From: Hydrogenophaga taeniospiralis | GTDB lineage: Bacteria > Pseudomonadota > Gammaproteobacteria > Burkholderiales > Burkholderiaceae_C | Direction: 5' to 3' | Assembly (NCBI RefSeq): GCF_020510445.1 | Contig: NZ_JAHBAG010000001.1 | Coordinates: 3,634,501 to 3,698,500, forward strand | DNA: 64,000 bases | Shown here: one piece after another, positions 6,014-24,366 of the stretch | Layout of the letters: every line of letters starts with the position of its first letter | Position numbering within the stretch: the stretch's first letter is position 1 | Made by a program: the position numbers and the translations under genes | The notes under the pieces: model-generated | Told to the model about the DNA's origin: nothing | The model's database searches: none | What the model saw: only the letters and a program-made list of their open reading frames with translations

Positions 6014-6115
6014 GTCTGTCTCCTGGTTGGTAATTCCCCCCCCGGTGCAAGCCGAGGACAGGTGGCGCTACGTTAGCCCCACGTCACCCGCACAGGGATG
6101 CCCACGCCCATTTCA

Positions 6116-6172: not shown

Positions 6173-6246
6173 TTCGGTCTGCGCCAGCGCCTGGGCGGCA
6201 CGCGCTGGGACAAACTGGCACCTGTTCCGAGAGCTTACCAACGACC

Positions 6247-6558: not shown

Positions 6559-6600
6559 GGGCGTTTCGCCAGACTTGCCGTCCTACCCCGACGGCGGTCG

Positions 6601-8016
6601 TCATTGGGGCGAGATCACCTTGCCCGGATTCATCAGGCCCAGCGGATCGAGCGCCTGCTTGACCGCCTGCATGAGCGCGAGTTCAAGCTCACTTTTGTAG
6701 CGGGCATTTTCGTCGCGGCGCAGTTGCCCCAGGCCGTGTTCTGCGCTGATCGAGCCTTGAAAGGCGACGACCTGGTCGTGGACCAGCCGGTTGATTTCGG
6801 GCTGCCGCTCGGCAAACGCCGCCGCATTACTGCCCGGCGGCGCGAGCACGTTGAAGTGCAGGTTGCCGTCCCCCAGGTGCCCGAACCAGGCGACCCGGGC
6901 GCCCGGCGCGGCGCGGGCCACCAAAACCTCGGCGTCGCCCACGAACGCGGCTACGTGAGACGCCGGCAGTGAAATGTCGTGTTTGATGTGCGGCCCATCC
7001 AGCCCCTGTGCCTCCGAGATGTGTTCACGCAGCGCCCACAACTGCCGGGACTGAGACAGCGACTCGGCCACCACCCCGTCCACCACCGTGCCCACGTCCA
7101 TGGCAAGACCCAGCACCCGCTCCAGGGCATCCCGGGCACCGGCTTCGCCATGGTGATCCGACACCTCCAGCAGCACAGCAAGAGGATGATTCGTGGCGAA
7201 CGGCCAGCGCAGAGCGGGAAAGTGCCTCGCCAGCAAGGGCACGCAGGCGTTCGATATGACCTCGAACGCCGTGAGTGCCGGGCCCAGCTCCAGGCGCGCC
7301 TGGGTCAGCAGCGTCACCGCGTCGGTCAGCGACGGCAGCGCCATCATCGCGGTCAGCGTGGCCCTGGGCGGCGCGAACAGCTTGAGTGCCGCCGCCGTGA
7401 TCACGCCCAGCGAGCCTTCCGAACCAATGTAGAGCTGCTTCAGGTCGTAGCCAGTGTTGTCCTTGCGCAAGGCGCGCAAGCCATTCCAGACCTGTCCATC
7501 CGGCGTCACCACTTCGAGGCCCAGGGTCAGCTCGCGCATGTTGCCGTAGCGCAGCACCGCCGTTCCACCCGCGTTGGTGGCCAGGTTGCCACCCACCGTG
7601 CAGCTGCCCTGCGCGGCCAGCGACAGCGGAAACAGGCGCCCTGCCCCGCGCGCGGCATCCTGCAGCGCCTGCAGCGTCACCCCGGCCTCCACCACCACGG
7701 TGTCGTTGGCTGCGTCGATGTGGCGGATGCGGTTCAGGCGGCACAGGTTCAGCACGAGCTGCTGCCCGTAGGCGTCGGGCGTGGCACCACCCGACAGACC
7801 GGTGTTGCCACCCTGCGGCACCACGGCGACACCCCGGTCATGGGCCAGCGCCATCACGGCCGCCACCTCGGCGGTGCTACCGGGCCGCACCACCGCCCTG
7901 GCCCGTCCAAGGTACTTGCGGCGCCAGTCCGTGTTGTAGGCCGCCATATCGTCGGGCAGCGTCAGCACATGGGCGTCGCCCACCAGCGCGCGCAGCGCCG
8001 CTACCAGATCCGTCAT
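6601..8016 (-). CDS. FAD-linked 2-hydroxyacid oxidase (GlcD / D-lactate dehydrogenase type)
   Basis: 471 residues with the vanillyl-alcohol-oxidase fold. An N-terminal FAD domain (VVRPGSTAEVAAVMALAH, VPQGGNTGLSGGATP, GSEGSLGVITAA) is followed by a C-terminal cap with WFGHLGDGNLHFNVL and SISAEHGLGQLRR, the motifs for metal/substrate and catalytic His in GlcD, D-lactate and D-2-hydroxyglutarate dehydrogenases. It should oxidise a D-2-hydroxyacid. ATG 8016 is chosen because the first 20 residues of the longer frame lie in the gap to dctM and look non-coding. It follows dctM of set 2 by 25 bases and is probably the last gene of that operon. Confidence 0.9.
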   Translation of the reverse strand: MTDLVAALRALVGDAHVLTLPDDMAAYNTDWRRKYLGRARAVVRPGSTAEVAAVMALAHDRGVAVVPQGGNTGLSGGATPDAYGQQLVLNLCRLNRIRHIDAANDTVVVEAGVTLQALQDAARGAGRLFPLSLAAQGSCTVGGNLATNAGGTAVLRYGNMRELTLGLEVVTPDGQVWNGLRALRKDNTGYDLKQLYIGSEGSLGVITAAALKLFAPPRATLTAMMALPSLTDAVTLLTQARLELGPALTAFEVISNACVPLLARHFPALRWPFATNHPLAVLLEVSDHHGEAGARDALERVLGLAMDVGTVVDGVVAESLSQSRQLWALREHISEAQGLDGPHIKHDISLPASHVAAFVGDAEVLVARAAPGARVAWFGHLGDGNLHFNVLAPPGSNAAAFAERQPEINRLVHDQVVAFQGSISAEHGLGQLRRDENARYKSELELALMQAVKQALDPLGLMNPGKVISPQ

Positions 8017-8041
8017 ACTGTGTGTCCAGGCGAAGAGAGTG

Positions 8042-9313
8042 TCACTTGACCAGTGCCAGAGCGAAGGTCGGCACATAGGTGACGACCGCCAGCACCACCA
8101 GCATCATCAGCACAAAGGGCGTGATGGCCCGCGCAACAGGCCAGAGCTTGACCCCGCTGATGGCCATGCCCACAAAAAGGCAATACCCTATGGGTGGCGC
8201 CGCCATGCCGATGGCCACGTTGGTGACCATCATGGCGCCGAAGTGGATCGGATCAACACCGAACTGGTTGGCGATGCTGATCAGCATCGGCCCCAGGATG
8301 ACCATGATCGCGATCTCGTCCATCACGGCGGCAAGAAGGAAGAAGCCGATGTTCAGCGCCAACAGCATCATCCATTTCTCATGGACATGCTGCGCCAGCC
8401 AGCTGGCCAGCTGGTTGGCCAGCTGCTCCTGCGCGACCAGAAAGCCAAAGCCGCTGGAGACCACGATGATGGCCATCACGATGGCACTGATGGCCATGGC
8501 ACGAGACACCACCTGTGGCAGCTGGCTCCAACTCAACCGGCGCTCGATCACAACACCGACAAACAGCGCGTAAAGGCAGGCGACGACCGCAGCTTCCGTC
8601 GGCGTGAAGGCCCCGCCGTAGATCCCCCCCAGCACCACCACCGGCGCGAGCAACGCCCACATACCCTCGCGCAAGGCCGCCACCGCCTCCGGCCAGGTCG
8701 CCCGTGGCTCCCTGGGTTGCGGACTGCGCAGCGCATGGGCCACGACAATGACCGCCATGCCCAGCGCCATCAGCAGGCCGGGCAGCACACCCGAGAGAAA
8801 CAGCTTCGCGATCGACTGTTCCGCGATCACCCCCCAGATCACGAATGCGATGGAAGGCGGGATCAGCGGCGCCAGCACACCCGCGCTCACCACGAGCGCG
8901 GTGGCGTAGGCCCGGCTGTACCCGCGCTCGGTCATGGCCGGGATCATCACGGCACCGATGGCCGCCGTGGTGGCCGGCGCCGAACCGCTGACGGCCGCAA
9001 AGATGAGCGCGGCCACGATCACCACCAGACCCAGGCCCCCGGGCAGGTGGCGCACGAAGACCTCGGCCACCCGCACCAGGCGTTGCGACAAACCGCCCGC
9101 GCTCATGAGCTCACCCGCCAGCATGAAGAAGGGAATGGCCAACAGCGTGAAGCTCTGCGTGCCCGCCACGATGGTCTGGGGCAGCAGCATGGGCTCGATG
9201 CCCACGGTGAGCAGGACCGCGATCACGCTGAGGGCGATCGCAAACGCGAAGGGCACCCCGAGCAGCACCAGGCCGGTGAAGCCCGCTGTGAGAATCCAGG
9301 CGGTGATGGACAT
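8042..9313 (-). CDS. dctM: TRAP transporter large permease (DctM type), set 2
   Basis: 423 residues, about 12 hydrophobic segments. DctM signatures are visible: FFMLAGELMSAGGLSQRLVR, AAVSGSAPATTAAIGAVMIP, GVLAPLIPPSIAFVIWG and APPIGYCLFVGMAI. It is the channel subunit of the second TRAP system and lies 3 bases after dctQ. It is clearly distinct from set 1, so the two systems are unlikely to be a recent duplication and probably carry different acids. Confidence 0.93.
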   Translation of the reverse strand: MSITAWILTAGFTGLVLLGVPFAFAIALSVIAVLLTVGIEPMLLPQTIVAGTQSFTLLAIPFFMLAGELMSAGGLSQRLVRVAEVFVRHLPGGLGLVVIVAALIFAAVSGSAPATTAAIGAVMIPAMTERGYSRAYATALVVSAGVLAPLIPPSIAFVIWGVIAEQSIAKLFLSGVLPGLLMALGMAVIVVAHALRSPQPREPRATWPEAVAALREGMWALLAPVVVLGGIYGGAFTPTEAAVVACLYALFVGVVIERRLSWSQLPQVVSRAMAISAIVMAIIVVSSGFGFLVAQEQLANQLASWLAQHVHEKWMMLLALNIGFFLLAAVMDEIAIMVILGPMLISIANQFGVDPIHFGAMMVTNVAIGMAAPPIGYCLFVGMAISGVKLWPVARAITPFVLMMLVVLAVVTYVPTFALALVK

Positions 9314-9316
9314 GGT

Positions 9317-9850
9317 TCAGTTGGTGGGAGTTGTTGAAGCGTCCGGCCTGGCGCCAGGCCCCAGCAGGGCATGTTCGAGGGCAAACACCGCGACGAGCAC
9401 GCCGCACACCGGTGCAGCGGCGTAGAGACCGGTCAGGGGGTAACCGATGGCGGCCGAGGTGAACCCCGTTGAATCCGCCACGTAGCGCACCCCCGACCAG
9501 GCGGTGAACACCCCGGTGAACGCGATGGCCAGCGAGACCAGCCGTTCCATGCCCGTTCGCAGCGGTTCGGGCAGGCGGTCCACCAGCAGGTCCATGCGAA
9601 CATGGATGGCGTCGCGCACGCCGGCCGCAATCGCCAGCAGCGTGCCCCAGGTGAAGCAGGCCAGCGCCAGCTCTTCGGTCCAGCTGGCGGCATGCCCGAA
9701 CACGTAGCGCATCACCACCTGCAGCGACAGCGACACGAGCATGACCCCTGTGAGACCCAGCACGGCCCAGCGAACCAGGCGCAACAGATGATCACAGGTG
9801 CCGTGCACAAAGGGCGCCAGTGCAGTGCCCTGCTTCATGAACAGCGCCAT
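9317..9850 (-). CDS. dctQ: TRAP transporter small permease (DctQ type), set 2
   Basis: 177 residues with four membrane segments. VMRYVFGHAASWTEELALAC is a classic DctQ second-segment motif, with Glu-Glu after the Trp. It begins directly next to the dctP stop with no gap and is followed by dctM after 3 bases, the normal P-Q-M order. It works with DctM in the inner membrane. Confidence 0.92.
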   Translation of the reverse strand: MALFMKQGTALAPFVHGTCDHLLRLVRWAVLGLTGVMLVSLSLQVVMRYVFGHAASWTEELALACFTWGTLLAIAAGVRDAIHVRMDLLVDRLPEPLRTGMERLVSLAIAFTGVFTAWSGVRYVADSTGFTSAAIGYPLTGLYAAAPVCGVLVAVFALEHALLGPGARPDASTTPTN

Positions 9851-10855
9851 TCACTTCACCTGTTCAAGGGCCATGGTCATCAGGTCGGCGCCGATGCCTG
9901 GCTTGAATTTTTCGTACATCGGTGCCACCGCCTTGCGGAAGGCAGCCGGGTCGGAAACCGTGTTGACCTTCATGCCCTTGCTCTGCAACACATCAACCAT
10001 CTGGAGACCATGCTCAAAGTTGGCCTTGCGCTGCTCGGCCACGGCCACCCTGGCGGCATCGGTCACGGCCTTGCGCTGCTCAGCCGACAGCTTGCCCAGG
10101 GTGCGGTTGCCAATCAGCAGTTCCAGGGCCGTGTAGGTGTGGTTGGTCTGTGAGAGGTACTTGGTCACCTCGTAGACCTTCAGCGAGTCGATGAAGGCCA
10201 GCGGCAGCTCAAGACCATCCACCATGCCCTGCTGTACGGCGGTGTAGGTCTCGCCCCAGGCCATGGGCACGGCCGAGCCACCGAGCGAGGTGAACATGTC
10301 GATGAACACCGGGTTCTGCATGACGCGGTACTTGACCCCGATCACGTCGGCCGGCGTCTGAACGGGCTTCTTGTTGTTGATCATGTGGCGAAAGCCGGCT
10401 TCCATGTAGCCGAGCACGGTGATGCCCTTGGCCTCCAGGCGCTTGGACAGCTCTTTGCCCACGTTGCCGTCCAGCACGGTGCGGGCCTGGACCTCACTGG
10501 CGTACAGGAAAGGCAGATCGTTGAGCTGGAACCCGGGTTCCATCTGCGCCACCACCGCGTTGGTGATGATGGCGGCGTCCACGGTGCCGAAGCGCATGCC
10601 CTCCATCATGGGCTTCTCGTCCCCGAGTTGCCGGTTGGGAAACAGCTGCACCTCGATCGTGCCTTTGCTCGATGCTTCAAGCGCCGTCTTGAAGGCGCGC
10701 GCACCGATGGCCGACGGGTCCTGCGGTCCATCCGCCGTGGCCCAGCCCAGCTTGATGACGGTTTTGGCCGGTTGAGCAAGGGCCGTGGGCACAGCCAGAA
10801 CCATGGCCAAAGTGGCCAGACAAACGGACATGAAAGTTTTGCGGAAGGTCACCAT
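9851..10855 (-). CDS. dctP: TRAP transporter periplasmic solute-binding protein (DctP type), set 2
   Basis: 334 residues. The signal peptide ends near LAVPTALAQPAK, cleaving around residue 27. DVIGVKYRVMQNPVF holds the conserved ligand-binding Arg and GSAVPMAWGETYTAVQQGMV is a standard DctP motif. It delivers an organic acid to the DctQM of set 2. The gene follows the amidohydrolase by 30 bases and is probably co-transcribed with it. ATG 10855 has AAGGAGACA shortly upstream. Confidence 0.93.
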   Translation of the reverse strand: MVTFRKTFMSVCLATLAMVLAVPTALAQPAKTVIKLGWATADGPQDPSAIGARAFKTALEASSKGTIEVQLFPNRQLGDEKPMMEGMRFGTVDAAIITNAVVAQMEPGFQLNDLPFLYASEVQARTVLDGNVGKELSKRLEAKGITVLGYMEAGFRHMINNKKPVQTPADVIGVKYRVMQNPVFIDMFTSLGGSAVPMAWGETYTAVQQGMVDGLELPLAFIDSLKVYEVTKYLSQTNHTYTALELLIGNRTLGKLSAEQRKAVTDAARVAVAEQRKANFEHGLQMVDVLQSKGMKVNTVSDPAAFRKAVAPMYEKFKPGIGADLMTMALEQVK

Positions 10856-10885: not shown

Positions 10886-11758
10886 TCACCCTTGTGAGGG
10901 TTCTTGCCAGTACAGGTGCGTGGGGTTGTGCACCAGCACCGTTTCGCGCACACGGTCGTCCGGCAGCCAGTCGGGCACCAGCGACACCAGTTGCTCATCG
11001 TCCGGCACCGCATGCGGGCTGGAAGGGTGGGGCCAGTCCGTTCCCCACAGCAGGCGCTGTGGGTTGGTCCTGACGTACCGTTCGGCGAGACGCCGCACGT
11101 CGGCATCGGCATGGCATTGCGGCGACACACGGTAGGGGGCCGACAGTTTGACCCATGCCGTCCCCTCGGCAAGCTGTGCGAGCAGGTTGGCAAAGCCCGC
11201 GCTCTGGCCAATGGCTGCTGCCGCGTGGTGCCCCATGTGGTCCACAACCACAGTCACGCCCATGGCCTGCACCTGCGCGACCAGGTCGGGCTGCTGCACC
11301 ACATCGACCAGCAGCTGGACATGCCAGCCGAACGGCCTGACCTTGGCCACGATCCCCTCCACCGTCTGCATGTCTGGTGGGGCGGAGAACATGGTGGTGA
11401 TGCGGGTGCCACGCGCGCCCAGGCGGTGCCAGCGCTCGATGTCGGCCTCGGGCGTGGTGGGCGCCACGACCGCAATACCCCGCATGTGCCCCCCGTGTTG
11501 CCGCAGGATGTCTTCGAAGCTCTGGTGATCGGCGCCGAACACGGTCGGGTGGATCAGAACGCTGCGCTCAATGCCGAAGCGCTCACACAAGGCCAGGTAG
11601 CTCGACAAGGTCGCGTCGGGCGGCGTGTAATGCCGCTGCGGCGCATAGGGGTAGCGCGCAGCATCGAAAACATGAAAATGGCAGTCGCACGCACCCGCAG
11701 GCAGTCGAAACGCCGCTGGGCGCGCTGTCGGCGCGGAAGCCAGGTGCGCGGCGCTCAT
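10886..11758 (-). CDS. LigI-like amidohydrolase (pyrone-dicarboxylate lactonase family)
   Basis: 290 residues, a TIM-barrel amidohydrolase of the 2-pyrone-4,6-dicarboxylate hydrolase (LigI) subgroup. ACDCHFHVFDAARYPYAP carries the HxH strand-1 motif, VVVDHMGHH the later His, and LLWGTDWPHPS the catalytic Asp. Members hydrolyse lactones of dicarboxylic acids. It shares an ATGA overlap with the upstream ketopantoate reductase-like gene and precedes dctP of set 2. A second family member lies at 60640-61506. The substrate is unknown. Confidence 0.85.
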   Translation of the reverse strand: MSAAHLASAPTARPAAFRLPAGACDCHFHVFDAARYPYAPQRHYTPPDATLSSYLALCERFGIERSVLIHPTVFGADHQSFEDILRQHGGHMRGIAVVAPTTPEADIERWHRLGARGTRITTMFSAPPDMQTVEGIVAKVRPFGWHVQLLVDVVQQPDLVAQVQAMGVTVVVDHMGHHAAAAIGQSAGFANLLAQLAEGTAWVKLSAPYRVSPQCHADADVRRLAERYVRTNPQRLLWGTDWPHPSSPHAVPDDEQLVSLVPDWLPDDRVRETVLVHNPTHLYWQEPSQG

Positions 11759-12807
11759 GCCACGATCGCCTTCAACAGGTCCGGGCTGGGCGTCAGTTCG
11801 CCGCGCTCGATTCTCTGAATGGTTTCGTTCACACGCTGGTGCAGCGTGACGTCGATGCCGACCTCGCCACCACGTCGCGCCACCAGGCCATTGATGTCAT
11901 TGGTCTCGGTGCGGCGACCCTTGCCGATGTCCTGCCCCATCGAGGGGCGTTGCGCATCGCTGCGCGAGTTGGCCACGGCCATAATCATCTCGGTGATGGC
12001 GTCGAACGCGGCCGGGTCGTCGTCAGAGCGCGCCAGCAGGTCGAGATCCAGCCCGCCCACGGGCTCCAGCGCCAGACCGAGCGCCCGCCCGACGCGGATG
12101 CAGGAGCTGCCCAGCCGGATGCTGAGGTTCCTCGCCACGTCGTTGTTGTCGCGTTGTTTGCCGGTGAGACCGGTCAGTGCGCACACACCGTTGCGCATGG
12201 CGTTGATGGTGAGCTTGGACCAGCGCTCGCCCCAGAGGTTGTGGGTCACCTTGCAGCTGTCGCCGTGCGCGAGCAAGCCACCGATCAGCTCGGCCCTCGG
12301 CGTCACCCGTCCATGCACTTCGCCGATGCGCATGCCCGGCTTCTTCTCGTCGCCCAGCGGCGAATTGCGCACGATGTGGCCCGGCGCCACCAGTTCAGCT
12401 GCCAGCGCGCTGACGGAGCAGCCCAGGGTGCGGCCCCAACCCGCCACGCTGGCGATGGCGTCTTCGTTGATGCCGTTCTGCAGCGAGACCAAGCAGCCGT
12501 TGGGCGCCAGGTAGGGCAGAACGAGCTGAGTCGCCCACAGTGTGTCGTACGACTTCACTGCGATAAAGGCCACGTCGATGGGCCGCTCTCGCACCAACTG
12601 GTGTATGTCGCCGATGTGCAGCGCCCGCACCGGTATATCCACCGAGCCCGCGCCGTTCATGCCGCTCACTGAAATTCCCTGGCGGCGCAGGGTCTCCACA
12701 TGCTCAGGCCATGCGTCCACCAGGACCGTGTCCACGCCCGCCCTGGAGAGATGCGCCCCCACATAGCCGCCCACCGCGCCGGCTCCCACAATGCATACCC
12801 GTGTCAT
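11755..12807 (-). CDS. Ketopantoate reductase family oxidoreductase (ApbA/PanE)
   Basis: 350 residues. The N-terminal Rossmann motif is VGAGAVGGYVGAHLSRAG; the C-terminal helical domain has LWGERWSKLTINAM, whose Lys corresponds to the PanE catalytic Lys. It should reduce or oxidise a 2-oxo/2-hydroxy acid with NADP(H). It is longer than housekeeping PanE (about 300) and sits in a catabolic operon, overlapping the amidohydrolase, so a role in hydroxyacid metabolism is more likely than in pantothenate synthesis; that is inference. Confidence 0.85.
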   Translation of the reverse strand: MTRVCIVGAGAVGGYVGAHLSRAGVDTVLVDAWPEHVETLRRQGISVSGMNGAGSVDIPVRALHIGDIHQLVRERPIDVAFIAVKSYDTLWATQLVLPYLAPNGCLVSLQNGINEDAIASVAGWGRTLGCSVSALAAELVAPGHIVRNSPLGDEKKPGMRIGEVHGRVTPRAELIGGLLAHGDSCKVTHNLWGERWSKLTINAMRNGVCALTGLTGKQRDNNDVARNLSIRLGSSCIRVGRALGLALEPVGGLDLDLLARSDDDPAAFDAITEMIMAVANSRSDAQRPSMGQDIGKGRRTETNDINGLVARRGGEVGIDVTLHQRVNETIQRIERGELTPSPDLLKAIVA

Positions 12808-12838: not shown

Positions 12839-13717
12839 TCAAGCGTGAGGAGTGCAGTAATCGGCGGCTGCCAGGCGGAAGGTGGTGCGCTTCATCAGAC
12901 GCGGCTGGTCCAGCTTCATCGGGTCTCGCCGATGCATCGTGCAGCCGTTGTCCCACATCATCAGATCGCCGTTGTGCACCTTGTGCCGGTACGCCAGCGA
13001 CGGGTGCCCCCCCGCCTCGAACAGGATCGGCAGCACTCGCGCGTTCTCTTCTTCCGACAGCCCCTCGATCCCGATCAGCGTGGTCGGGTCCGCGTACAGC
13101 GCCTTGCGCCCGGTGTGCGGGTGCCTCAGCACCAGCGGGTGCGTCGCGTCCGGCAGGCTCAGCATCGCGTTGGCCTTGGCCTTGTCCTGCAGCTCCAGCG
13201 TGTTGAGCAGCGCATAGCGCTTGGCGTAGCGGTAGGTGCCGTTGCGCCCTTCGATCAGTTGCTGGATGTCTTGAGGCAACCGTTGCCAGGCTCCGTATTC
13301 GTCGGCCCAGTAGATGTCGCCGCCGTCGCGCGGCACCTCGGTGCCGTACAGGATGGCGCCGGTGGCCGGTCGAACCTGGAAGGTCTGATCGGAGTGCCAG
13401 TCCACGTCTTCTCCACCCGCGAAGCCACCCACGAAGCGCCCGTCCGAGTACTTCAATGTGCTGAAGTAGATGATCTGCTCGTGGTACGGCGACTGGATGT
13501 CTTTGCGCCCGGAGGTCTCGCACTTGCCGAAGTGCTCGGTGAAGCGCACCAGCTCGGCCTCGTCCAGCGCCTGGCGCCGGAAGATCATCACCGGTGACTT
13601 CTGCCAGATCGCCTTGAGTTCGGCGATGGCCGCCGGATCGTCCACGATGTCCTGGATGGCCACGTGCACCTGCACGGCAAAGTCGGAATGCAGCGGGCTG
13701 GTCTGAATGGATTTCAT
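12839..13717 (-). CDS. TauD/TfdA-family Fe(II)/2-oxoglutarate dioxygenase
   Basis: 292 residues with the jelly-roll fold of alpha-ketoglutarate dioxygenases. The iron ligands are visible as DWHSDQTF (H108, D110) and NGCTMHRRDPM (H262), with the following MKRTTF Arg region for 2-oxoglutarate. TauD/TfdA enzymes hydroxylate sulfonates, aryloxyacetates or other acids to unstable products. It lies between the TctC gene and the ketopantoate reductase-like gene on the same strand, 31 bases from the latter. The substrate is not predictable. Confidence 0.9.
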   Translation of the reverse strand: MKSIQTSPLHSDFAVQVHVAIQDIVDDPAAIAELKAIWQKSPVMIFRRQALDEAELVRFTEHFGKCETSGRKDIQSPYHEQIIYFSTLKYSDGRFVGGFAGGEDVDWHSDQTFQVRPATGAILYGTEVPRDGGDIYWADEYGAWQRLPQDIQQLIEGRNGTYRYAKRYALLNTLELQDKAKANAMLSLPDATHPLVLRHPHTGRKALYADPTTLIGIEGLSEEENARVLPILFEAGGHPSLAYRHKVHNGDLMMWDNGCTMHRRDPMKLDQPRLMKRTTFRLAAADYCTPHA

Positions 13718-13762: not shown

Positions 13763-14740
13763 TCAGTCGGGCTTCATGTGGGCAGCCTGGATCACCTGGG
13801 CGTAGTTGCGCCGCTCTTCTCGCAGCCAGGCGGTGAGTTCGGTGGGGTTGAGCGCAGGGGCGCGCTCAAAGCCCAGGTCCCCCAGGGCTTTCTGGGTCTC
13901 GGGCAGCTCCAGAATCTTGCGCATCTCTGTGGCCAGCTTGAGCTGGATCTCGGCGGGCACGCCCTTGGGCACCATGAGCGCGTTCCACGCGGCGATGGTG
14001 AAGTTGGGCAGGCCTTGTTCGCTGGCAGTCTTCACCCCGGGCATGGAGGCCATGGACGTGGTGGTGGTCACTGCAAGCACCTTGACCTTGCCCAACTGGG
14101 TGCGGGTGGCCGCCACGGTGTCGATGAGCACCGGCACGTGCCCGCCCAGTGTGGCGGTCATGGCGTCGGCCGAGCCTTTGAAGCGGATGCCAAAGAGCGG
14201 CACGTCGCGCTGCTTGAGCATCTCCAGCACCAGTTGCCCGGTGACGCTGGGGATGGCCGCGTCCACCGTGCCGGGCTTGCTCCTGGTCAGTGCGATGAGT
14301 TCGGTGAGGGAGTTGACGGGCGCACCGGCGCCGGCCGAGATGGCGAAGGGGATCAGGGCGGTGAGCGCGATGGCGTCGAAGTCTTTGTCGGCGTCAAACC
14401 CGGGGTTGGGGAACAGCGCGGGGTTCATGGCGTGGGTGCCGGAGGCGCCCATGACCAGTGTGTAGCCGTCGGGGGTGGCGCGCGCGGCGGCTGCGGTGCC
14501 GATGTTGCCGGAGGCGCCGGGACGGTTGTCCACGACGAAGCCCTGGCCGAGCGCTCGTGAGAGCTTCTCGGCGAAGTAGCGTGTGGCAATGTCCGTGCTT
14601 TGTCCCGCCGGGTACGCCACGATGATCTTCACCGCCCGGTTCGGCCAGTCAGCGTGGCTTTGCACCTGCGCAAAGCCCAGGGTGGGGCACAGCGCAACCA
14701 CCGCAAGGCCACGTGTCCAAGTTTTCCATTGGTTCATCAT
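13763..14740 (-). CDS. Bug/TctC-family tripartite tricarboxylate transporter binding protein
   Basis: 325 residues with an N-terminal signal peptide (cleavage near GFAQVQ). AVKIIVAYPAGQSTDIATRY and VVDNRPGASGNIGTAAAA are the diagnostic Bug-family ligand-loop motifs. It binds a carboxylate in the periplasm. No TctA/TctB membrane genes occur in the window, which is common for the many orphan Bug proteins of Burkholderiales. It directly follows meaB (21 bases), linking it to the mutase operon. Confidence 0.92.
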   Translation of the reverse strand: MMNQWKTWTRGLAVVALCPTLGFAQVQSHADWPNRAVKIIVAYPAGQSTDIATRYFAEKLSRALGQGFVVDNRPGASGNIGTAAAARATPDGYTLVMGASGTHAMNPALFPNPGFDADKDFDAIALTALIPFAISAGAGAPVNSLTELIALTRSKPGTVDAAIPSVTGQLVLEMLKQRDVPLFGIRFKGSADAMTATLGGHVPVLIDTVAATRTQLGKVKVLAVTTTTSMASMPGVKTASEQGLPNFTIAAWNALMVPKGVPAEIQLKLATEMRKILELPETQKALGDLGFERAPALNPTELTAWLREERRNYAQVIQAAHMKPD

Positions 14741-14761: not shown

Positions 14762-15676
14762 TTAAAGCGACCGAAAACTGGCGAAAGCCGCCAGCACCGC
14801 GTCCATCTGCTGCGCCATCGGGGCACGCAGCAACTGGGCATCCAGTTCGTTGACCGCTTCGCTCAGGCGGCGCTCGATGAGTCGGCGCAAGCGGTAGCGG
14901 CTGCGGCTGTCCAGCAGCGACGTGCGACGGTGCGCCTGGCCAAGCCACTGCTGATGCCGGTCGATGGTGTCGGACAGCGCCGCTACCGAATCGGGCTGGC
15001 GGGCCGAAGCCAGCAGCACCGGCGGGCGCCAGCGGTCTGCGGCGATCCGTGACACCGCGGCGATGCGCTGGATGTCGGCCGCCATGCGCTGGGCACCAGA
15101 CAGGTCGGATTTGTTGACCACAAAGATGTCGGCCATCTCCATGATCCCGGCCTTCATCGCCTGCACCACGTCGCCGCTGTCGGGCAGCAGCACCAGCACC
15201 AGGGTGTCCACCTGCACGCGCGCCGCGTACTCGGCCTGGCCCACGCCCACGGTTTCGAGCAGCACCTCGTCGAAGCCGTGTTGATCCATCAGGTCCAGCA
15301 TCTCGGGCAGGTTGTCCGACAGGCCGTCGGACGTGGATCGCGAACCGATGGACCGGATGTAGAGATCGCCGCTGCCTTGCAGCTCGTCCATGCGGATGCG
15401 GTCACCGAGGATCGCGCCGCCCGAGCGGGGACTGCTGGGGTCAATGGCCAGCACGCCGATGCGGCGCTCGCTGTCCAGATGCGTTGCCCGGTGCATCGCC
15501 AGGAGGCCCGCCAGCGTGCTCTTGCCGGCACCGGGCGCACCGGTCAGCCCGATGCGACGCGCAAGCTGGGCCGGCGCCTGCGACGGGCTGCGGTGCAGCA
15601 GGTCGGTGGCGCAGGCATTGGCCAGCGTGGTCAGTGCCCGGCCGAGTGTGTGGCGGTCCAGCGGTGGGCGTGTCAC
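14762..15676 (-). CDS. meaB: MeaB/ArgK-type G-protein chaperone for the B12 mutase
   Basis: 304 residues of the MeaB/ArgK SIMIBI GTPase family. The Walker A loop GLTGAPGAGKST is at about residues 43-54, followed by VLAIDPSSPRSGGAILGDR, LLETVGVGQ and the guanine motif NKSD. Such proteins load and protect the adenosylcobalamin mutase. The start is GTG at 15676, overlapping the CaiB stop as GTGA. Co-encoding with mutase subunits supports assignment as its dedicated chaperone. Confidence 0.93.
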   Translation of the reverse strand: MTRPPLDRHTLGRALTTLANACATDLLHRSPSQAPAQLARRIGLTGAPGAGKSTLAGLLAMHRATHLDSERRIGVLAIDPSSPRSGGAILGDRIRMDELQGSGDLYIRSIGSRSTSDGLSDNLPEMLDLMDQHGFDEVLLETVGVGQAEYAARVQVDTLVLVLLPDSGDVVQAMKAGIMEMADIFVVNKSDLSGAQRMAADIQRIAAVSRIAADRWRPPVLLASARQPDSVAALSDTIDRHQQWLGQAHRRTSLLDSRSRYRLRRLIERRLSEAVNELDAQLLRAPMAQQMDAVLAAFASFRSL

Positions 15677-16800
15677 GCGCGGACTCCACCCAACACGTCG
15701 GCGTGGTGCTGGTCCAGCAACGGCGGCAGACCGTAGCTGGGCACATGGCCGTTGAATTTCAGCGGGCTGGCCACGGCACGCAGAGGATGGCTGCCATCAC
15801 CGAGCGCCACCACCATCTGGCGCGAGCGCGCCAGATCGCTGTCCAGCGCCTGCGCCAGCGTGCCGATTTCCGACGCCACCACGCCGAGCGGCACCAGGCG
15901 GCGCACCCACTCGGCGGCCGGTGCCTGCATCAGGACCTCGCCAATGGCCGTCAGCACGTGGCTGCGGTTCTCGCGCCGGCTGGCCATGGTGGCGAACACC
16001 GGGTCGGTGATCCAGCCGGTCTGGCCGACCTCGTTGCAGAAAGTCCGCCAGAACTTGTCGTGCGTGATGAACAGCGTGAGCCAGCCGTCGGCGGTGGGGA
16101 ATATCTGGGCCGGCACCATGTAGGGGTGCGACGAATTCGCCAGGCGCTCCACCACCTCGCCCGTGTTGAGCGCAGCGCCGGCCAGGTAGTTCAGCTGCGA
16201 CAGCATCACGTCGTACATGGCCACATCGACCTGCCCACCCTCGCCCTCCACCAGCTTGGCCAGCAGCCCCATGGCCGCCACGATGCCGGCGGAATTGTCC
16301 ACCGCCGAATAGCCCGCCTTGGTGGGTGGCGACGTGGGCTCGCCGGTGAGCGACATCACGCCGGTGATCGCCTGGATCACGTAGTCGTAGGCAGGGCTCT
16401 CGGCATAGGGGCCTTCCAGGCCGTAGCCGGTGAGCGCAACGCAAACAAGGGACGGGTTGCAGGTGCGCAGCGCGTCGTAGGTCAGCCCCAGTTTCTTGAT
16501 GGCCGAGGGCCGCAGGTTGGTCACCAGCGCATGGGCACTTGCGGCAATGCTTTCCAGCTCGGCGCGGCCGTCCGGTGAGGCCAGGTCCAGCACCACGCTT
16601 TTCTTGTTGCGGTTGAGGCTGGTGAAGTAAGCGTTGTGGGGGCCGATGAAATGCGGGCTCACCTTGCGCGCGATGTCGCCCTCGGGGGGTTCGATTTTGA
16701 TCACCTCGGCACCCATGTCGGCCAGCAGCAGGCCGCAATAGGGGCCGGCCAGCATGTGGCCGACCTCGATGATGCGCACACCGGCGAGCGGGCCGCTCAT
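15673..16800 (-). CDS. CaiB/BaiF family III CoA-transferase
   Basis: 375 residues, full length for family III CoA-transferases. The N-terminal IIEVGHMLAGPYCGLLLADMG and KIEPPEGD segments and the central SPAYDYVIQAITGVMSLTGE are typical; D139 matches the catalytic Asp that forms the acyl anhydride. It would activate a carboxylic acid using another CoA ester. It overlaps the B12-binding subunit gene (ATGA) and meaB (GTGA). The likely job is making the CoA ester that the mutase rearranges, or passing CoA from its product. Confidence 0.93.
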   Translation of the reverse strand: MSGPLAGVRIIEVGHMLAGPYCGLLLADMGAEVIKIEPPEGDIARKVSPHFIGPHNAYFTSLNRNKKSVVLDLASPDGRAELESIAASAHALVTNLRPSAIKKLGLTYDALRTCNPSLVCVALTGYGLEGPYAESPAYDYVIQAITGVMSLTGEPTSPPTKAGYSAVDNSAGIVAAMGLLAKLVEGEGGQVDVAMYDVMLSQLNYLAGAALNTGEVVERLANSSHPYMVPAQIFPTADGWLTLFITHDKFWRTFCNEVGQTGWITDPVFATMASRRENRSHVLTAIGEVLMQAPAAEWVRRLVPLGVVASEIGTLAQALDSDLARSRQMVVALGDGSHPLRAVASPLKFNGHVPSYGLPPLLDQHHADVLGGVRA

Positions 16801-17213
16801 GAGAAGCTCGCCGCCAGTTTCGCCACCACGGTGTCCAGTGGCATATCGGCGGTGAAAACGGCCGCCACGCCCAGTTCGTGCAGGAAGGCCTGGTCTTCGG
16901 CCGGGATGGTGCCGCCGACAAACACCTTCACGTCATGGGCCTTGGCGTCGCGCAAGGCGGCGATCACGTCACCCACCAACTCCTTGTGGCTGCCCGACAG
17001 GATGCTCAGGCCCACGGCGTCGACGCCCTCGTCCACCGCCACCTGGGCAATCTGAGCGGGGCTGCGGCGCAGACCGGTGTAGATCACCTCGGCGCCGGCG
17101 TCGCGCAGCGTGAGCGCCACGATCTTGGCGCCGATGTCGTGGCCGTCGAGGCCGGGCTTGCCAATCAGGATGCGGCGTCCCGCGAGCGGACGCGCTTCTT
17201 TGATTTGTGTCAT
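16797..17213 (-). CDS. Cobalamin-binding subunit of acyl-CoA mutase
   Basis: 138 residues, the size of a stand-alone B12-binding small subunit as in isobutyryl- or 2-hydroxyisobutyryl-CoA mutases. The base-off/His-on signature DGHDIG lies at residues 23-28, with the SIL segment at 70-72 and FVGGTIP at 98-104. The His coordinates cobalt. ATG 17213 is chosen from the ATGA overlap with the large subunit; upstream residues in frame belong to that gene's other reading frame. It pairs with the large subunit encoded just before it. Confidence 0.95.
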   Translation of the reverse strand: MTQIKEARPLAGRRILIGKPGLDGHDIGAKIVALTLRDAGAEVIYTGLRRSPAQIAQVAVDEGVDAVGLSILSGSHKELVGDVIAALRDAKAHDVKVFVGGTIPAEDQAFLHELGVAAVFTADMPLDTVVAKLAASFS

Positions 17214-18835
17214 AGGTTCACCGGCTCCTTGAATTCGCCCCATTCCTTTTTCAGACAGGCCACCATCTCGCCCACGGTGGCGTAGGCGTGGCAACAGTCC
17301 ACCAGGTAGGGCATGACGTTTTCGCTGTCATTGGCCGCAGCCTGGGACAGGCGGGCCAGCGCGGCATCGACGGCGCTTTGGCTGCGGGTGTCGAGCACAC
17401 GCTGAAACTTGTCGAGCGCGCGCTGTGCGATGGTGGAATCGAGCTTGAAGACCTCGCCCACCTTGATTTCTTCGTCGGTCTTGCGAAAGTGGTTCTGCCC
17501 GACGATGACGTGGTGCCCGCTGTCGGTGTCGAGCTTGCGCTCCAGCCCGCGCTCGGCCAGACGCATCTGGATCCAGCCGTCTTCGATGGCCTTCTCGACA
17601 CCTCCGTAGGTATCAATTTCACCCATCACCTTGAGGATCATCTCTTCCATGCGGTCGGTGTGCTGCTCCAGAAAGTAGCTGCCGCCCAGCGGGTCCACGG
17701 TGCGGGCGATGCCGCTCTCGAAGGCGATCATCTGCTGGGTGCGAACCGCCAGTTCGGCCGAAAACTCGGTCGGAATCTGGAAGGCTTCGTCAAACGCGCA
17801 GGTAAAGATCGACTGGGCGCCGCCGAACACCGCCGCCATGGTTTCCACCGCCACCCGCACTACGTTGTTGTAGGGCTGAGGCGCGACCAGCGATGAGCCG
17901 CCGCACACCACACCGAAGCGCAGGTGCTGGGCCTTGGGGTCCTTCACGCCATAGCGCTCCTTCATGAAGCGGGCCCACAGCCGCCGCCCGGCCCGGAACT
18001 TCGCGATCTCCTCGAAGAAGTCCATGTGCACATAGAAGAAAAATGACAGGCGTTTGGCAAACTTCTCCACGTCACCGCCGCGCGCCTGAAGCTCGTCCAC
18101 ATAGGCCAACCCGTTGGCCAGCGTGTAGGCCATCTCCTCGGCGGCGGTGGCACCAGCGTCGCGCACGTGCGCCCCGGCGATGCTGATGGGGTTGAAGCGC
18201 GGCGTGACCTCGTTCGAGTAAAGGATGGAGTCGGCGATCAGCCGCATGGAGGGCCGCACCGGAAAGATCCAGGTGCCCCGCGCCACGTACTCCTTGAGGA
18301 TGTCGTTCTGGATCGTGCCGGTGAGTTTGCTGCGCGGCACACCCTGCTTGTCGGCCACCGCCAGGTACATGGCGTAGATGATGGCGGCGGTGCCGTTGAT
18401 GGTGAACGAGGTCGAGATCTTCGACAGGTCGAGGTCCTTGAACAGGATCTCGGCTTCGCTCAGGTTGGACAGCGAAACTCCGACCTTGCCGATCTCAGGG
18501 CGGGCCATGGGGTGGGTCGGGTCGTAGCCGCACTGGGTGGGCAAATCGAGCGCGACCGACAGGCCGGTCTGACCCTGGTCCAGCAAAAACTTGTAGCGCT
18601 CATTGGATTCTTCGGCGGTGCCAAAGCCCGAGTACTGGCGGATCGTCCACAGGCGGCCCTGGTAGCCATCGGGGAAGATGCCCCGGGTGAACGGGTACTC
18701 GCCGGGGTTGCCGATGCGCTCGGCTTGCACGGCGCTGGCGTCCACGCTGGGCGGCACCGGAATGCCGCTGCGGTTGACCGGGCTGAGCACCGGCTCGGCC
18801 AGGGGAACAGCGGGTTTCTGGTCTCTCATGTTCAT
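17210..18835 (-). CDS. Acyl-CoA mutase large subunit, divergent (methylmalonyl-CoA mutase family)
   Basis: 541 residues: the substrate-binding TIM barrel without the B12 domain. It shows family segments such as [27 protein letters not shown] and [11 protein letters not shown]68, R186 and H223 align by eye with Tyr89, Arg207 and His244 of methylmalonyl-CoA mutase. However, the segment that reads HCQT followed by a TSGWSLT-like stretch in known mutases is replaced here by residues 308-317 ([10 protein letters not shown]), and the usual LHTN before the DEA motif is IFTC (343-346). The reaction therefore should not be called methylmalonyl-CoA mutase without evidence. The start overlaps the crotonase stop as TGATG. 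Confidence 0.88.
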
Positions 18836-19629
18836 CACGCGCCTTTGGAAAGAAGCTTTTCGGAAGCCGACCAGTGGTCGTCGTGCAACCAGGTCTGGGT
18901 CAGGTGCTGCTGTTCGACACGGCGGTGCTGCTGCCAGCCCTGGCCCTGCCTGGCAGCGATGGCTTGCGCCTTGATGCCGCGCAGCACCTGCGCCGGGCAG
19001 GCGTCGAGGGGTTTCGTGAATGCCGCGATGTCGGAGCCGCTGGGTCCGTCGGCGATGACCGCATCGGCAAGGCCCCAGGCCAGCGCCTGCTCGGCGCCCA
19101 CCAGTTCGCAGCGGCTCATCATTCGCATGGCGCGCGCCGGGCCGACCAGCCCGAACAGGTCGGGGCCGCCGCCCCAAGCCGAGGTGATGGCCAGCTTGGC
19201 CTGGATGTAGCCGATGCGCGCATGGCTGGCCTGCAGGCGCATGTCGCAGGCCAGCGCAAGTTCCGCGCCGCCGCCGATGGCGTCACCGTTCAGGTAGGCC
19301 AGCACCGGCACCGGGCAATGGCGGATGGCATCCAGGGCGGCGCAGGCGTCGTCCATCATGGCCACCACGGCGGGTTCGTCGCGCACGTTGGCCAAGTCCC
19401 GCAGATCGCCACCGGCGGCGAAGTAGCGGTCGCCGGCGCCGGTCACGACGATGTAGCGGACGTCGGCACGCAGACCGGCCTCCCGGACGGCGGTGGCCAG
19501 GTCGGCCAGCACCGGGCGGGCCAGTGCGTTGTGTTTGTGGGCGCGGTTCACGGTCACCCAGACCGCGCCATAAGGATGCTCGATGACGCGCACCTGAGTG
19601 TCGGTTGTTTCTGTGGTTTGGGTTGGCAT
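18835..19629 (-). CDS. Enoyl-CoA hydratase/isomerase family protein, first gene of mutase operon
   Basis: 264 residues from ATG 19629 (ATG 19638 also possible; neither has a strong ribosome site). Crotonase motifs are YFAAGGDLRDLANV (oxyanion hole) and AIGGGAELALACDMRLQ, with the first catalytic Glu position kept. The second Glu position appears altered in the IGYIQAKLAITSAWGG segment, where hydratases have a Glu-containing PE motif. It may therefore be an isomerase or hydrolase rather than a hydratase. It is divergent from the iclR gene at 19716 and is the promoter-proximal gene of the five-gene set. Confidence 0.85.
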   Translation of the reverse strand: MPTQTTETTDTQVRVIEHPYGAVWVTVNRAHKHNALARPVLADLATAVREAGLRADVRYIVVTGAGDRYFAAGGDLRDLANVRDEPAVVAMMDDACAALDAIRHCPVPVLAYLNGDAIGGGAELALACDMRLQASHARIGYIQAKLAITSAWGGGPDLFGLVGPARAMRMMSRCELVGAEQALAWGLADAVIADGPSGSDIAAFTKPLDACPAQVLRGIKAQAIAARQGQGWQQHRRVEQQHLTQTWLHDDHWSASEKLLSKGA

Positions 19630-19680
19630 GGGGCGCATGTTAGGTTTGCAACTGTTCTTGTGGAAGAATATAAATTCGAC

Positions 19681-19730
19681 ATTTCGAACAAACTTCCACC
19701 TCAAAGGAGAAAACCTTGGATTTCGAACAA
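19681..19730. promoter_or_regulatory. Direct repeats at the divergent crotonase/iclR promoter
   Basis: ATTTCGAACAA occurs at 19681-19691 and again at 19720-19730, 39 bases apart. The first copy extends to an inverted element (TTCGACATTTCGAA). The second overlaps the first codons of the iclR gene. This placement fits autoregulation of iclR and control of the divergent mutase operon, but binding is inferred. Confidence 0.45.
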
Positions 19731-20537
19731 CTTGTTCAGCCAGCTGAACATACCAAGGCTGATGGATCTGCTGTACCTGGCCCTTCCGGTGGCGTGGCGG
19801 TCACTGCTGTGGGTCGGGTGCTGAACATCTTTGAGGCCTTCCAGAAGGTGCAGAAACCCATGTCACTGACCGATCTGGCCGACATCACCGGCATTCCCAA
19901 GAGCAGCTGCCATGCGATCGTTGCCACGCTCACGGCGCGCGGCTACCTGTACTCGCTCAGCCGCCCCCGAGCGCTCTACCCCACCCGGCGCTTCTTCGAC
20001 ATCGCCAGCGAAATCCACCACCACGACCCGTTTGTCGAGCACGTGATGCCCTTGCTGGAGCGGCTGCGCGACACCTCGCGGGAGACCGTGATCCTGGGCA
20101 AACGCCAGGGCGACGCGGTGATCTACCTGCAGGTGGTCGAGAGCCCGCATTCGATCCGCTACTCGTCCAAACCAGGCGAGTTCAAACCACTGCATTCCAG
20201 CTCCATTGGCAAGGCTTTGCTGGGCAGCCTCAAGGAATCCGAGCTGCGAACACAGATGGCCGAGCGCCCACTGCCCGCCGTGACGGCCGCGACCATCACC
20301 GACAACGACCTGCTCATCAACGACATCCTGGAGAGCCGGCGGCGCGGCTACTTCGTCACCCGGGGCGAAAACGTGCCCGACGTGTGGGCCGTGTCGGCCT
20401 TCCTCAACGTGCATTCCGAGACACTGGCCGTGGCGATCGCCGGGCCAAGGCACCGCATGGAAAACAACGTGGTGGAATGCGCGCAACTGTTGCTGGCGAC
20501 CTGCAGCTTCATTTCCCGGCAATGGGCCCGGGCATGA
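19716..20537 (+). CDS. IclR-family transcriptional regulator of the mutase operon
   Basis: 273 residues with a TTG start at 19716 supported by AAAGGAG eight bases upstream. The helix-turn-helix region (PMSLTDLADITGIPKSSCHA) is followed by the IclR effector domain ending near the stop with an AQLLLATCSFISRQWARA tail. It is transcribed away from the crotonase-mutase-CaiB-MeaB operon. It overlaps the following hydrolase gene by ATGA. The likely ligand is the operon's substrate or its CoA ester. Confidence 0.93.
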   Translation: MDFEQLVQPAEHTKADGSAVPGPSGGVAVTAVGRVLNIFEAFQKVQKPMSLTDLADITGIPKSSCHAIVATLTARGYLYSLSRPRALYPTRRFFDIASEIHHHDPFVEHVMPLLERLRDTSRETVILGKRQGDAVIYLQVVESPHSIRYSSKPGEFKPLHSSSIGKALLGSLKESELRTQMAERPLPAVTAATITDNDLLINDILESRRRGYFVTRGENVPDVWAVSAFLNVHSETLAVAIAGPRHRMENNVVECAQLLLATCSFISRQWARA

Positions 20538-22712: not shown

Positions 22713-23420
22713 TCACTCCTCGATCGCACCACCAATCGAGCGCAGATGTTGCCGGAACGTCACGCCCGCGTCTGCCTTTCGAGCAGCCAGAAACTCATCG
22801 AAGCGGGCCTGCTGTCTGAAGGTAGTACCAAGATGCATACGCGCTGCTTGACTGCGCTCAGTGTCCCGAATCGTGGTTGCCAGTTCGGCCACCTCTTGGG
22901 CGTGGCTCAGGGGGACAAAGATCACGCCATCATCATCACCAAGCACGAAGTCGTCGGTGGTGATTGCATGCTCACCGCAGCTGGCAGATGAGAGTGCGGC
23001 CGCCTCCTGTGGTTCCAGACGCTGTGGCCCAGCGGGCAAAGTACCCAGACTGAAGATCGGCAGCCGAATGGTTCGCAGTTCAGCCGAGTCGCGATGCAAA
23101 CCCCAGATGACAATGCCGCGCAAGCCCGCACGCGCCGTTTCCAGCGTCACCAGGTCGCCAACACAGGCTTCATCCAAGCGCCCCTCGTTGTCGACCACCA
23201 ACACGTCTCCAGGCGCAGATCGATCGATGGCTTCGAGAAAGACGTCGACACTGCCATAGTGCCGCGAAGGGCGTGCACGGCCAACAACATGCGTACCGCT
23301 CCAGAGTGGTCGCATTCCCGCCGGAGCACAGCGAACCGCGATTCCCAGGCGCATGCAGGCATCCGCGACGTGGGGCGTTGTGAGGTCCAGGTAGGTGCGT
23401 TGAAGCTTTACGGTGTCCAT
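22713..23420 (-). CDS. RraA-like protein (aldolase/demethylmenaquinone methyltransferase superfamily), copy A
   Basis: 235 residues. The RraA fold is indicated by VVDNEGRLDEACVGDLVTLE, GLRGIVIWGLHRD and DDFVLGDDDGVIFVPL. Catalytic relatives are 4-hydroxy-4-methyl-2-oxoglutarate aldolases and oxaloacetate decarboxylases; others bind RNase E. ATG 23420 has AGGAG eight bases upstream and starts one base after the decarboxylase-like stop, so the two genes are coupled. A second, damaged copy lies at 59124. It is the last gene of the operon headed by the branched-chain aminotransferase. Confidence 0.85.
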   Translation of the reverse strand: MDTVKLQRTYLDLTTPHVADACMRLGIAVRCAPAGMRPLWSGTHVVGRARPSRHYGSVDVFLEAIDRSAPGDVLVVDNEGRLDEACVGDLVTLETARAGLRGIVIWGLHRDSAELRTIRLPIFSLGTLPAGPQRLEPQEAAALSSASCGEHAITTDDFVLGDDDGVIFVPLSHAQEVAELATTIRDTERSQAARMHLGTTFRQQARFDEFLAARKADAGVTFRQHLRSIGGAIEE

Positions 23421-23421
23421 G

Positions 23422-24273: not shown

Positions 24274-24366
24274 ATAGAACTCCTGTTTTAAAAAATGAGC
24301 GAACATCCCGGCGCTTGCGTAGCGTCCGGGTATGGGCTGAATTGGTTGAATGCTGGGTGCATGCCG

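Follow-up and report, generated by a model that had tools for sequence, protein, structure and literature searches.

Which reaction is served by a B12-dependent acyl-CoA mutase that is encoded, in overlapping reading frames, together with a crotonase-fold protein, a coenzyme A (CoA) transferase and a MeaB-type chaperone? Few reactions are known for such mutases, and finding another generally points to a pathway not yet described. We asked this question for a five-gene operon of Hydrogenophaga taeniospiralis (NCBI RefSeq assembly GCF_020510445.1), located in a stretch of 64,000 nucleotides of contig NZ_JAHBAG010000001.1 that is here called the window and to which all coordinates given without a locus name refer. 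Our answer is tentative, though quite possibly the right one: the operon would encode a decarboxylating cycle of the Sbm type, acting on a succinate with a bulky alkyl or aryl substituent. If true, carboxyl groups could be removed from branched diacids without ATP, and the prediction is concrete (dicarboxylate substrate, crotonase-type decarboxylase and IclR regulon), thereby making the substrate testable. No description of the operon was found among the papers listed in searches of an open-licence library.

Five overlapping genes around a B12-dependent mutase

The operon spans 14762-19629 on the minus strand, the genes being arranged in the order crotonase, mutase large subunit, B12-binding subunit, CaiB-type CoA transferase and MeaB, with the successive junctions TGATG, ATGA, ATGA and GTGA. 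A first-pass annotation, made from the sequence alone, had described five overlapping genes with these junctions, and all of them were recovered upon reading of the open reading frames (ORFs) and assignment to Pfam and NCBIfam families. The range it had given, 15673..19629, holds four of the genes and leaves out meaB (14762-15676). Its divergent IclR gene was also borne out.

18835..19629, minus strand: crotonase-fold protein, probable decarboxylase of substituted malonyl-CoA (PF00378; E/Q/W residues)
17210..18835, minus strand: adenosylcobalamin (AdoCbl)-dependent acyl-CoA mutase, large subunit (PF01642, 633 bits; residue table; trees)
16797..17213, minus strand: cobalamin-binding small subunit with DxHxxG motif, LDGHDIG (PF02310, 81 bits; TIGR00640, 129.5 versus cut-off 57.45)
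15673..16800, minus strand: class III (CaiB/Frc) CoA transferase (PF02515, 361.6 bits)
14762..15676, minus strand: MeaB-type G-protein chaperone of the mutase (PF03308, 229.7 bits; GAPGAGKST, ETVGVGQ and NKSD)
19716..20537, plus strand: divergent IclR-family regulator (PF01614/PF09339)

In the Pfam and NCBIfam queries the ends of the crotonase and the B12-binding subunit were a few bases longer, and the mutase three bases shorter, than the ORFs. The PF01642 and PF02310 domains, with KPGLDGHDIG in the small subunit, placed the mutase in the AdoCbl acyl-CoA mutase superfamily, and the PF03308 domain with its P-loop GTPase motifs placed the chaperone in the MeaB/MMAA family, at a score just below the TIGR00750 equivalog cut-off (230.8 versus 240.75 bits). 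The transferase carries the CoA_transf_3 domain of class III, with PAYDYVIQA or PAFDYVIQA among the aligned rows listed, which we take to be the conserved Asp motif of that class. Its best NCBIfam models, those for succinate-glutarate (237 bits) and mesaconate (220 bits) transferases, remained far below their cut-offs of 750 and 700, and its likely role is to load CoA on a dicarboxylate or to shift it from one carboxyl to the other. This gene content supported the earlier notion of a self-contained module that activates, rearranges and processes an acid, with the processing step narrowed here to a likely decarboxylation by an E...Q crotonase.

A separate mutase clade with replaced pocket residues

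Residues of the mutase were numbered as in P. shermanii methylmalonyl-CoA mutase (MCM), using the 1req alignment (chain index plus one). The residue table held 57 rows, i.e. 28 from the clade of the window mutase and 29 others, including three of MCM and 12 resembling isobutyryl-CoA mutase (ICM), IcmF or 2-hydroxyisobutyryl-CoA mutase (HCM), nine of these being ICM-like; the set was one without verified ethylmalonyl-CoA mutase, IaaG or MatB/ActD sequences. The 28 rows, from Proteobacteria, Actinobacteria and the loci L057 and L059, formed a clade having a branch support of 100/99 in a second tree of 50 rows, from which seven long or divergent rows (L003, L124, L125-L128 and L106b) had been omitted.

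Throughout the clade (28/28), Tyr89, Gln197, Arg207, His244, Ser285 and Glu370 were kept, and His328 was replaced by Gly, Gln330 by Val, Ser332 by Gly and His364 by Phe. Tyr243 had become Ala in 27 rows and Ser in one, and Asn366 Cys in 19 and Ala in nine, the window mutase itself having Y243A, H328G, Q330V, S332G, H364F and N366C. The 120 best mutase relatives listed, all at least 87% identical and found in many metagenomes, agreed without exception at positions 89, 197, 207, 243, 244, 364 and 366. Outside the clade, H328, Q330 and H364 were unchanged in 27 of the 29 rows, the exceptions being the IaaG-like L123 and L124. Every clade row thus has the Tyr89/Arg207 of canonical MCM and none has the pocket Tyr243/His328/Gln330/His364/Asn366 of the three MCM rows. 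The signature of ICM and HCM was likewise absent from all 28: the 12 ICM-, IcmF- and HCM-like rows have Gln207 together with Phe89, Ile89 or Val89, and HCM in addition Asp116, in place of which the clade has Arg207, Tyr89 and Ala116. Ordinary MCM, ICM and HCM identities were rejected on these residues together with the tree, in agreement with the first-pass view that this is no ordinary methylmalonyl- or isobutyryl-CoA mutase; that annotation would have given way to a conserved synteny accompanied by ordinary activity, and we found the synteny conserved with residues unlike those of either enzyme. The mutase is 41-43% identical to MCM, and a housekeeping role is unlikely, since genes resembling those of MCM and IcmF are present elsewhere in the genome.

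Arg207 and Tyr89, which are alignment positions here, are presumably the residues binding the acid group of the substrate. The retention of this pair together with the changed pocket is our main ground for proposing a bulky dicarboxylyl-CoA substrate. Considered with the class III CoA transferase and the TRAP and TTT transporters, it points to a dicarboxylic acid having a bulky substituent, in preference to the branched and hydroxy carboxylic acids that had been put forward earlier. Phenyl-, alkyl- and carboxymethyl-substituted succinates would all be compatible with the data. No known substrate was found for this mutase branch, and the best solved relative is HCM (4r3u). A structure model of the mutase reached a pLDDT of 73.8.

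The relation of the clade to L123 was probed with approximately unbiased (AU) tests, in which one clade with L123 gave p 0.31 and grouping of the family with MCM instead gave p 0.074. In a first tree L123 and L124 had joined beside the family (99/93), a placement flagged as possible long-branch attraction. L124 itself (5173-9521) holds a divergent mutase having Asn89, Arg207 and Cys243, with MeaB, CaiB (41%), DctP and IclR (51%) genes, and is a possible second diacid mutase module. Yet another mutase class, having Leu89, Asn or Leu207, Gln243 and Asp366, was seen at L106:1313-2995 and in L125-L128, the L106 copy lying ~10 kb from the present module with genes for a B12-binding subunit, MeaB, an AMP-binding protein and an ABC transporter.

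A crotonase lacking the second catalytic glutamate

In the crotonase of the operon the equivalent of E144 is kept, the equivalent of E164 is Gln and a conserved Trp follows; these are E124, Q144 and W153 in the 265-residue query, which started one codon early. All three were invariant in the 120 listed homologues, none of which thereby has both Glu144 and Glu164 as expected of an enoyl-CoA hydratase, and the E/Q/W combination was found in none of the 27 other PF00378 matches of the same genome, all of which were read.

The same residues recurred with distant relatives of the mutase. At L059 a crotonase of 27-28% identity with E/Q/W lies directly upstream of the mutase gene. Eight of 24 actinobacterial loci had a crotonase match, four being E/Q/W and four of another type (S/H/D, 6-7 kb downstream); the former are 34-36% identical to the window protein and lie either divergently beside the mutase gene (L036) or 5-9 kb away (L037, L041 and L048). 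In a small test of 12 whole genomes, with the window crotonase as query and all 25 matches at E <= 1e-20 read, an E/Q/W crotonase was present in all six genomes picked as mutase carriers (G025 and G841-G845), including all three actinobacterial genomes tested and unlinked to the mutase in the mycobacterial G844 and G845, and in none of six same-genus genomes in which only MCM-like genes had been found (G001, G005, G007, G022, G024 and G029). Two of the latter held crotonases with E/H/W (L165 in G022 and L169 in G001), perhaps another non-hydratase type.

These observations give good support to the view that the crotonase is a partner of the mutase and something other than a standard hydratase. 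The co-occurrence strengthens this link and not the decarboxylase reading as such, which is the most likely one from the operon logic and from analogy with scpB of the E. coli sbm operon. The protein may resemble the animal ethylmalonyl-CoA decarboxylase ECHDC1. A structure model (mean pLDDT 82) was of low quality in the very loop that matters here, residues 141-150, and in fold it matched generic crotonases, mostly hydratases; the E. coli methylmalonyl-CoA decarboxylase was not among the 50 best fold matches listed, which excludes nothing.

Conserved gene order and patchy distribution

Gene order was compared among 21 distinct proteobacterial loci with flanking DNA (L024, L026-L034, L106-L110, L114, L116 and L118-L121), of which L107 and L110, both counted, are near-copies from Paraburkholderia; the window, L025 (cut), the short L002, L004-L009, L105 and L111-L113, and the duplicates L115, L117 and L122 had been dropped. 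The first-pass annotation had called for such a search, and the core order was found to be conserved: crotonase, mutL and mutS were contiguous in 21/21, with caiB next in 19 (exceptions L029 and L032) and meaB in 20 (L119 yielded none). A match of IclR type was present in 17, none being seen in L029 and L109, while L028 and L032 end at contig ends. The full order recurred in other families and classes at 70-73% mutase identity, and parts of it at 54-57%, so the arrangement cannot be put down to chance. Diaphorobacter, Paraburkholderia, Sulfitobacter and Marinobacter plasmids provide named examples, the gene after meaB encoding a TTT-type, TRAP or TAXI-TRAP component in the first three and an adenosyltransferase in Marinobacter. 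The 24 actinobacterial clade loci, which are those at 54-57% mutase identity, all had mutS, and 22 had a CaiB match within the locus.

Among 60 same-genus genomes six had close orthologues (at least 87% identical), namely G000, G025, G033, G037, G038 and G047, the source genome included, and a 94% homologue (P0006) came from a named Hydrogenophaga metagenome-assembled genome. Carriers at 79% or more numbered four of 399 family genomes and two of 399 order genomes, with the source genome among those tallied, these samples having been drawn evenly with at most three candidates scored per genome. The distribution of the module is patchy, like that of catabolic islands. In Billgrantia pellis (G841, L030) the module mutase was the sole acyl-CoA mutase at E <= 1e-60 among three candidates scored. 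At the deep clade members L059 and L057, the mutase gene is followed by a 622-residue ORF (L059:11638-13506; L057:1775-3643) resembling aldehyde:ferredoxin oxidoreductase.

Comparison with known systems

The genes had earlier been matched to no named pathway. Two named analogues do exist, the E. coli sbm operon and the IaaL/IaaGH pair, of which neither is identical to the present system. The sbm operon (scpA, argK, scpB and scpC) has the same four roles of mutase, MeaB-type GTPase, crotonase-fold enzyme and CoA transferase, which by fold and gene content are also found together here. Its scpB, annotated as methylmalonyl-CoA decarboxylase, keeps the first Glu and has lost the second, as in the window crotonase, whereas its mutase has Y243/H328/Q330/H364/N366, all five of which are replaced in the window mutase.

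HcmAB resembles the present system in having separate large and small subunits with MeaB nearby, as seen in Methylibium PM1 (L130, which we take to be HCM, in part from its residues), but has Ile89/Gln207/Asp116 and an AMP ligase where the window operon has Tyr/Arg/Ala and CaiB. A plasmid of Shinella (L131) carries in one run an aminotransferase, a B12-binding subunit, MeaB, an HCM-like mutase (Val89, Asp116), a crotonase having Glu at the second catalytic position and an AMP-binding protein.

Locus L123 was taken as IaaG by synteny; its cluster holds hydantoinase A/B, which we assume to belong to iaa clusters, together with an acyl-CoA dehydrogenase, a molybdenum enzyme, CaiB and an oxidoreductase that carries POR and TPP domains. 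Like the window clade, the L123 mutase has Y89/R207 together with changes at 328, 330, 332, 364 and 366, but unlike it has retained Y243, and the window proteins are 41% (mutase) and 25% (CaiB) identical to those of this locus. In the iaa system decarboxylation is oxidative, by an acyl-CoA dehydrogenase, whereas the window operon has a crotonase and neither an acyl-CoA dehydrogenase nor a hydantoinase gene. According to PMC8360864, IaaL is the phenylsuccinyl-CoA transferase and IaaGH the benzylmalonyl-CoA mutase of indoleacetate degradation in Aromatoleum aromaticum, which thus combines, as does the window operon, a CoA transferase with a mutase and acts on phenylsuccinyl-CoA and benzylmalonyl-CoA. 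PMC5719088 further gives MatB and ActD, of the biosynthetic clusters for matlystatin and actinonin that also have CCR and an epimerase, as proposed to convert hexylmalonyl-CoA to 2-pentylsuccinyl-CoA, being a precedent for bulky substrates in the superfamily by description and not by sequence.

Proposed reaction sequence and alternatives

In the cycle that we propose, a TRAP or TTT system, as suggested by the transporter genes, would import the diacid, onto which the CaiB-type transferase would, judging by its family, move CoA from succinyl-CoA or from the product acyl-CoA; it may also swap CoA between the two carboxyls of the diacid. The fold and residues of the mutase suggest that the radical would arise at the carbon bearing the free carboxylate, held by Tyr89/Arg207, whereupon the CO-SCoA group would migrate to give a substituted malonyl-CoA, with MeaB loading and repairing the mutase. 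With less certainty, the crotonase-fold protein would decarboxylate this malonyl-type thioester in its oxyanion hole, yielding a 3-substituted propionyl-CoA that could enter beta-oxidation or be returned to CoA transfer, so that in net terms R-succinate would lose CO2 without ATP. The IclR regulator would control the whole through paired operators, and the 2-oxoglutarate dioxygenase, the LigI-like hydrolase and the PanE-like oxidoreductase would make the diacid, or trim its substituent, starting from a larger compound, which would differ between lineages. The module would thus work like sbm and IaaL/IaaGH, yet it departs from MCM, from ICM and HCM and from enoyl-CoA hydratases at the residues that define them. 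A broader proposal, which we regard as conceivable but doubtful, is that an undescribed B12-dependent cycle of class III CoA transfer, radical rearrangement and non-oxidative decarboxylation of the crotonase type would occur across Proteobacteria and Actinobacteria, converting bulky aryl- or alkyl-succinates to propionyl-type CoA esters, with the mutase pocket rebuilt at the IaaG positions and a new decarboxylating crotonase family (E...Q...WGG) accompanying the mutase.

Several observations weigh against this reading. That the replacements widen the pocket for a large substituent is what we infer from aligned positions, and two of these are less telling, as Ser occurs at 366 in L061 and Asp in five Q243-class rows, and many rows have Ala or Ile at 332. 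The tree link to IaaG was neither supported nor rejected by the AU test, in which L123 stood for IaaG on the strength of synteny, and L124, where comparable positions have changed, has Asn89 and no known substrate. The scpB protein has Pro in place of Gln, lacks the Trp and is only 18-25% identical to the window crotonase, for which searches by sequence, profile and fold brought up mostly hydratases as the closest solved structures; scpC, moreover, is annotated as propionyl-CoA:succinate CoA transferase, whereas the window transferase is of class III. In 20 of the 24 actinobacterial loci the DNA examined showed no E/Q/W crotonase, and at least 12 of the 24 have an LLM-type oxidoreductase gene between mutS and caiB (these genes were clustered from crude ORF calls, with one member identified). 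L029 and L032 are without CaiB, and neither mutS, CaiB nor MeaB was seen within the DNA examined at L057 and L059.

Could the same enzymes act on a small substrate? In that case methylsuccinyl-CoA and ethylmalonyl-CoA (or succinyl- and methylmalonyl-CoA) would be interconverted, the main candidate being methylsuccinate, giving butyryl-CoA and CO2. Tyr89/Arg207 as in MCM would fit, no further catabolic genes would be needed, and L107 and L108 do have mainly transporter genes next to the module. We consider this quite unlikely, given that none of the MCM-row residues Y243, H328, Q330, S332, H364 and N366 is retained, that the genome already has an ordinary MCM and that the dioxygenase and lactonase genes linked to the module suggest a compound of greater complexity. 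An ordinary MCM operon, as a housekeeping duplicate, is scarcely credible: MeaB and a B12-binding subunit are present and the source names of the listed homologues, where given, are mostly methylmalonyl-CoA mutase, but the 41-43% identity, the separate clade (100/99), the replaced pocket and the CaiB and IclR partners all speak against it.

A mutase for monocarboxylic acids, like that for 2-hydroxyisobutyryl- or isobutyryl-CoA, would agree with HCM 4r3u as best solved relative and with the separate subunits, and is nevertheless highly improbable with Arg207/Tyr89 in place of Gln and Ile, Phe or Val, with Ala in place of Asp at the HCM-specific position (rows L130 and L131) and with no AMP ligase in the operon. 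Finally, the mutase may act as proposed with the crotonase being instead a hydratase/lyase, an isomerase or a thioesterase on another intermediate. Many different reactions are catalysed by crotonases that have a single one of these Glu residues, and the closest solved structures were mostly hydratases as noted above; we nonetheless regard this as unlikely, the E-to-Q change at the second catalytic Glu being invariant and shared with distant mutase partners, and scpB showing a comparable loss.

Putative paired IclR operators

Two putative operators were found between and within the divergent reading frames.

19672..19691, no strand: IclR operator 1 (putative), palindrome of the TTGTTCGA-N4-TCGAACAA type (25.2 bits)
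19732..19751, no strand: IclR operator 2 (putative), 60 bp from operator 1 (19.7 bits)

The matrix was made from twelve sites picked by eye in relatives, to the exclusion of the window itself. When the window was shuffled ten times with a Markov model, only two sites in all exceeded 13 bits, and the other window sites above 11 bits, at 63503 (19.6 bits), 1234 (15.2) and 45381 (12.6), were unpaired; given the lone site at 63503, it is the pair and not a single site that carries weight. Pairs 60-61 bp apart were found at 10 of 11 Burkholderiales places (the window, L026, L027, L028, L114, L115, L116, L118, L120 and L121), with one site only in L106. Seven of the ten had given training sites, so that the window, L118, L028 and a second L114 pair are independent. 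Scans of L030, L031, L033, L034, L107, L108 and L109 yielded no pair with the 60-bp spacing. Operator 2 sits within the iclR ORF as read from its TTG start at 19716, for which reason an in-frame GTG at 19794 is perhaps the true start.

In L114 one pair (16664/16725) lies in the divergent promoter of iclR and panE, and a second (11705/11766) directly precedes the crotonase gene. In L120 the iclR/tauD divergent promoter holds a pair (15892/15952), which precedes the genes tauD-ligI-dctP-dctM-crotonase-mutL-mutS-caiB-meaB, all on one strand. Through such pairs in relatives the TauD-, LigI- and PanE-like and TRAP genes are tied to the module. A second lineage (L106, L116, L117/L028 and L118) has instead genes for an ABC binding protein, an isopenicillin-N-synthase-like oxygenase, an aldehyde dehydrogenase and an SDR protein; the front end varies between lineages and the core stays. 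In L118 (12130-14740) there are two tandem copies of the operator pair and the iclR/crotonase start, which suggests a partial duplication of the module.

Downstream genes on the same strand

Eight further genes follow meaB on the same strand.

13763..14740, minus strand: TctC-type solute-binding protein, 21 bp after meaB (PF03401)
12839..13717, minus strand: TauD/TfdA-family Fe(II)/2-oxoglutarate dioxygenase (PF02668)
11755..12807, minus strand: PanE-like NAD(P) oxidoreductase (PF02558/PF08546)
10886..11758, minus strand: LigI-like amidohydrolase, lactonase-type (PF04909)
9851..10855, minus strand: TRAP substrate-binding protein DctP (TIGR00787, 226 bits)
9317..9850, minus strand: TRAP small permease, 177 residues (ORF; assigned as DctQ by position alone)
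8042..9313, minus strand: TRAP large permease DctM (TIGR00786, 410 bits)
6601..8076, minus strand: GlcD-type FAD hydroxyacid dehydrogenase (GlcD model, 241 bits, below the cut-off of 568)

With DctQ counted, the gaps in this run are -35 to 45 bp, and one transcription unit may therefore reach from 19629 to 6601. The earlier linking of these genes to the module held for several of them, on the grounds of the shared strand and of the operator pairs in relatives, and less so for GlcD, which among the loci scanned occurred only in L024 and its copy L115 and has a weak tie to the module. A transporter gene follows meaB in L106, L107 and L108, and a TctC match is found there in L024, L027, L114 and L121. 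The solved relatives of TauD are taurine and (R)-phenoxypropionate dioxygenases, and copies at 79-83% occur in L024/L115, L114, L120 and L121. The PanE-like gene has an 87% copy adjoining iclR in L114 and a 79% copy in L024. For the LigI-like protein the nearest solved relative is 2-pyrone-4,6-dicarboxylate hydrolase, and copies are found in L024, L114 and L120.

Elsewhere in the window, another TRAP system lies at 1312-6013, accompanied by an IclR gene and a weak match to ScyD/ScyE, and an RraA-like protein is encoded beside an acetoacetate-decarboxylase-like protein (PF06314) at 22713-24306. An aminotransferase, a 3-hydroxyacyl-CoA dehydrogenase, an ECH_2 protein and an enoyl-CoA hydratase at 28236-32625 resemble a separate beta-oxidation or valine-type cluster.

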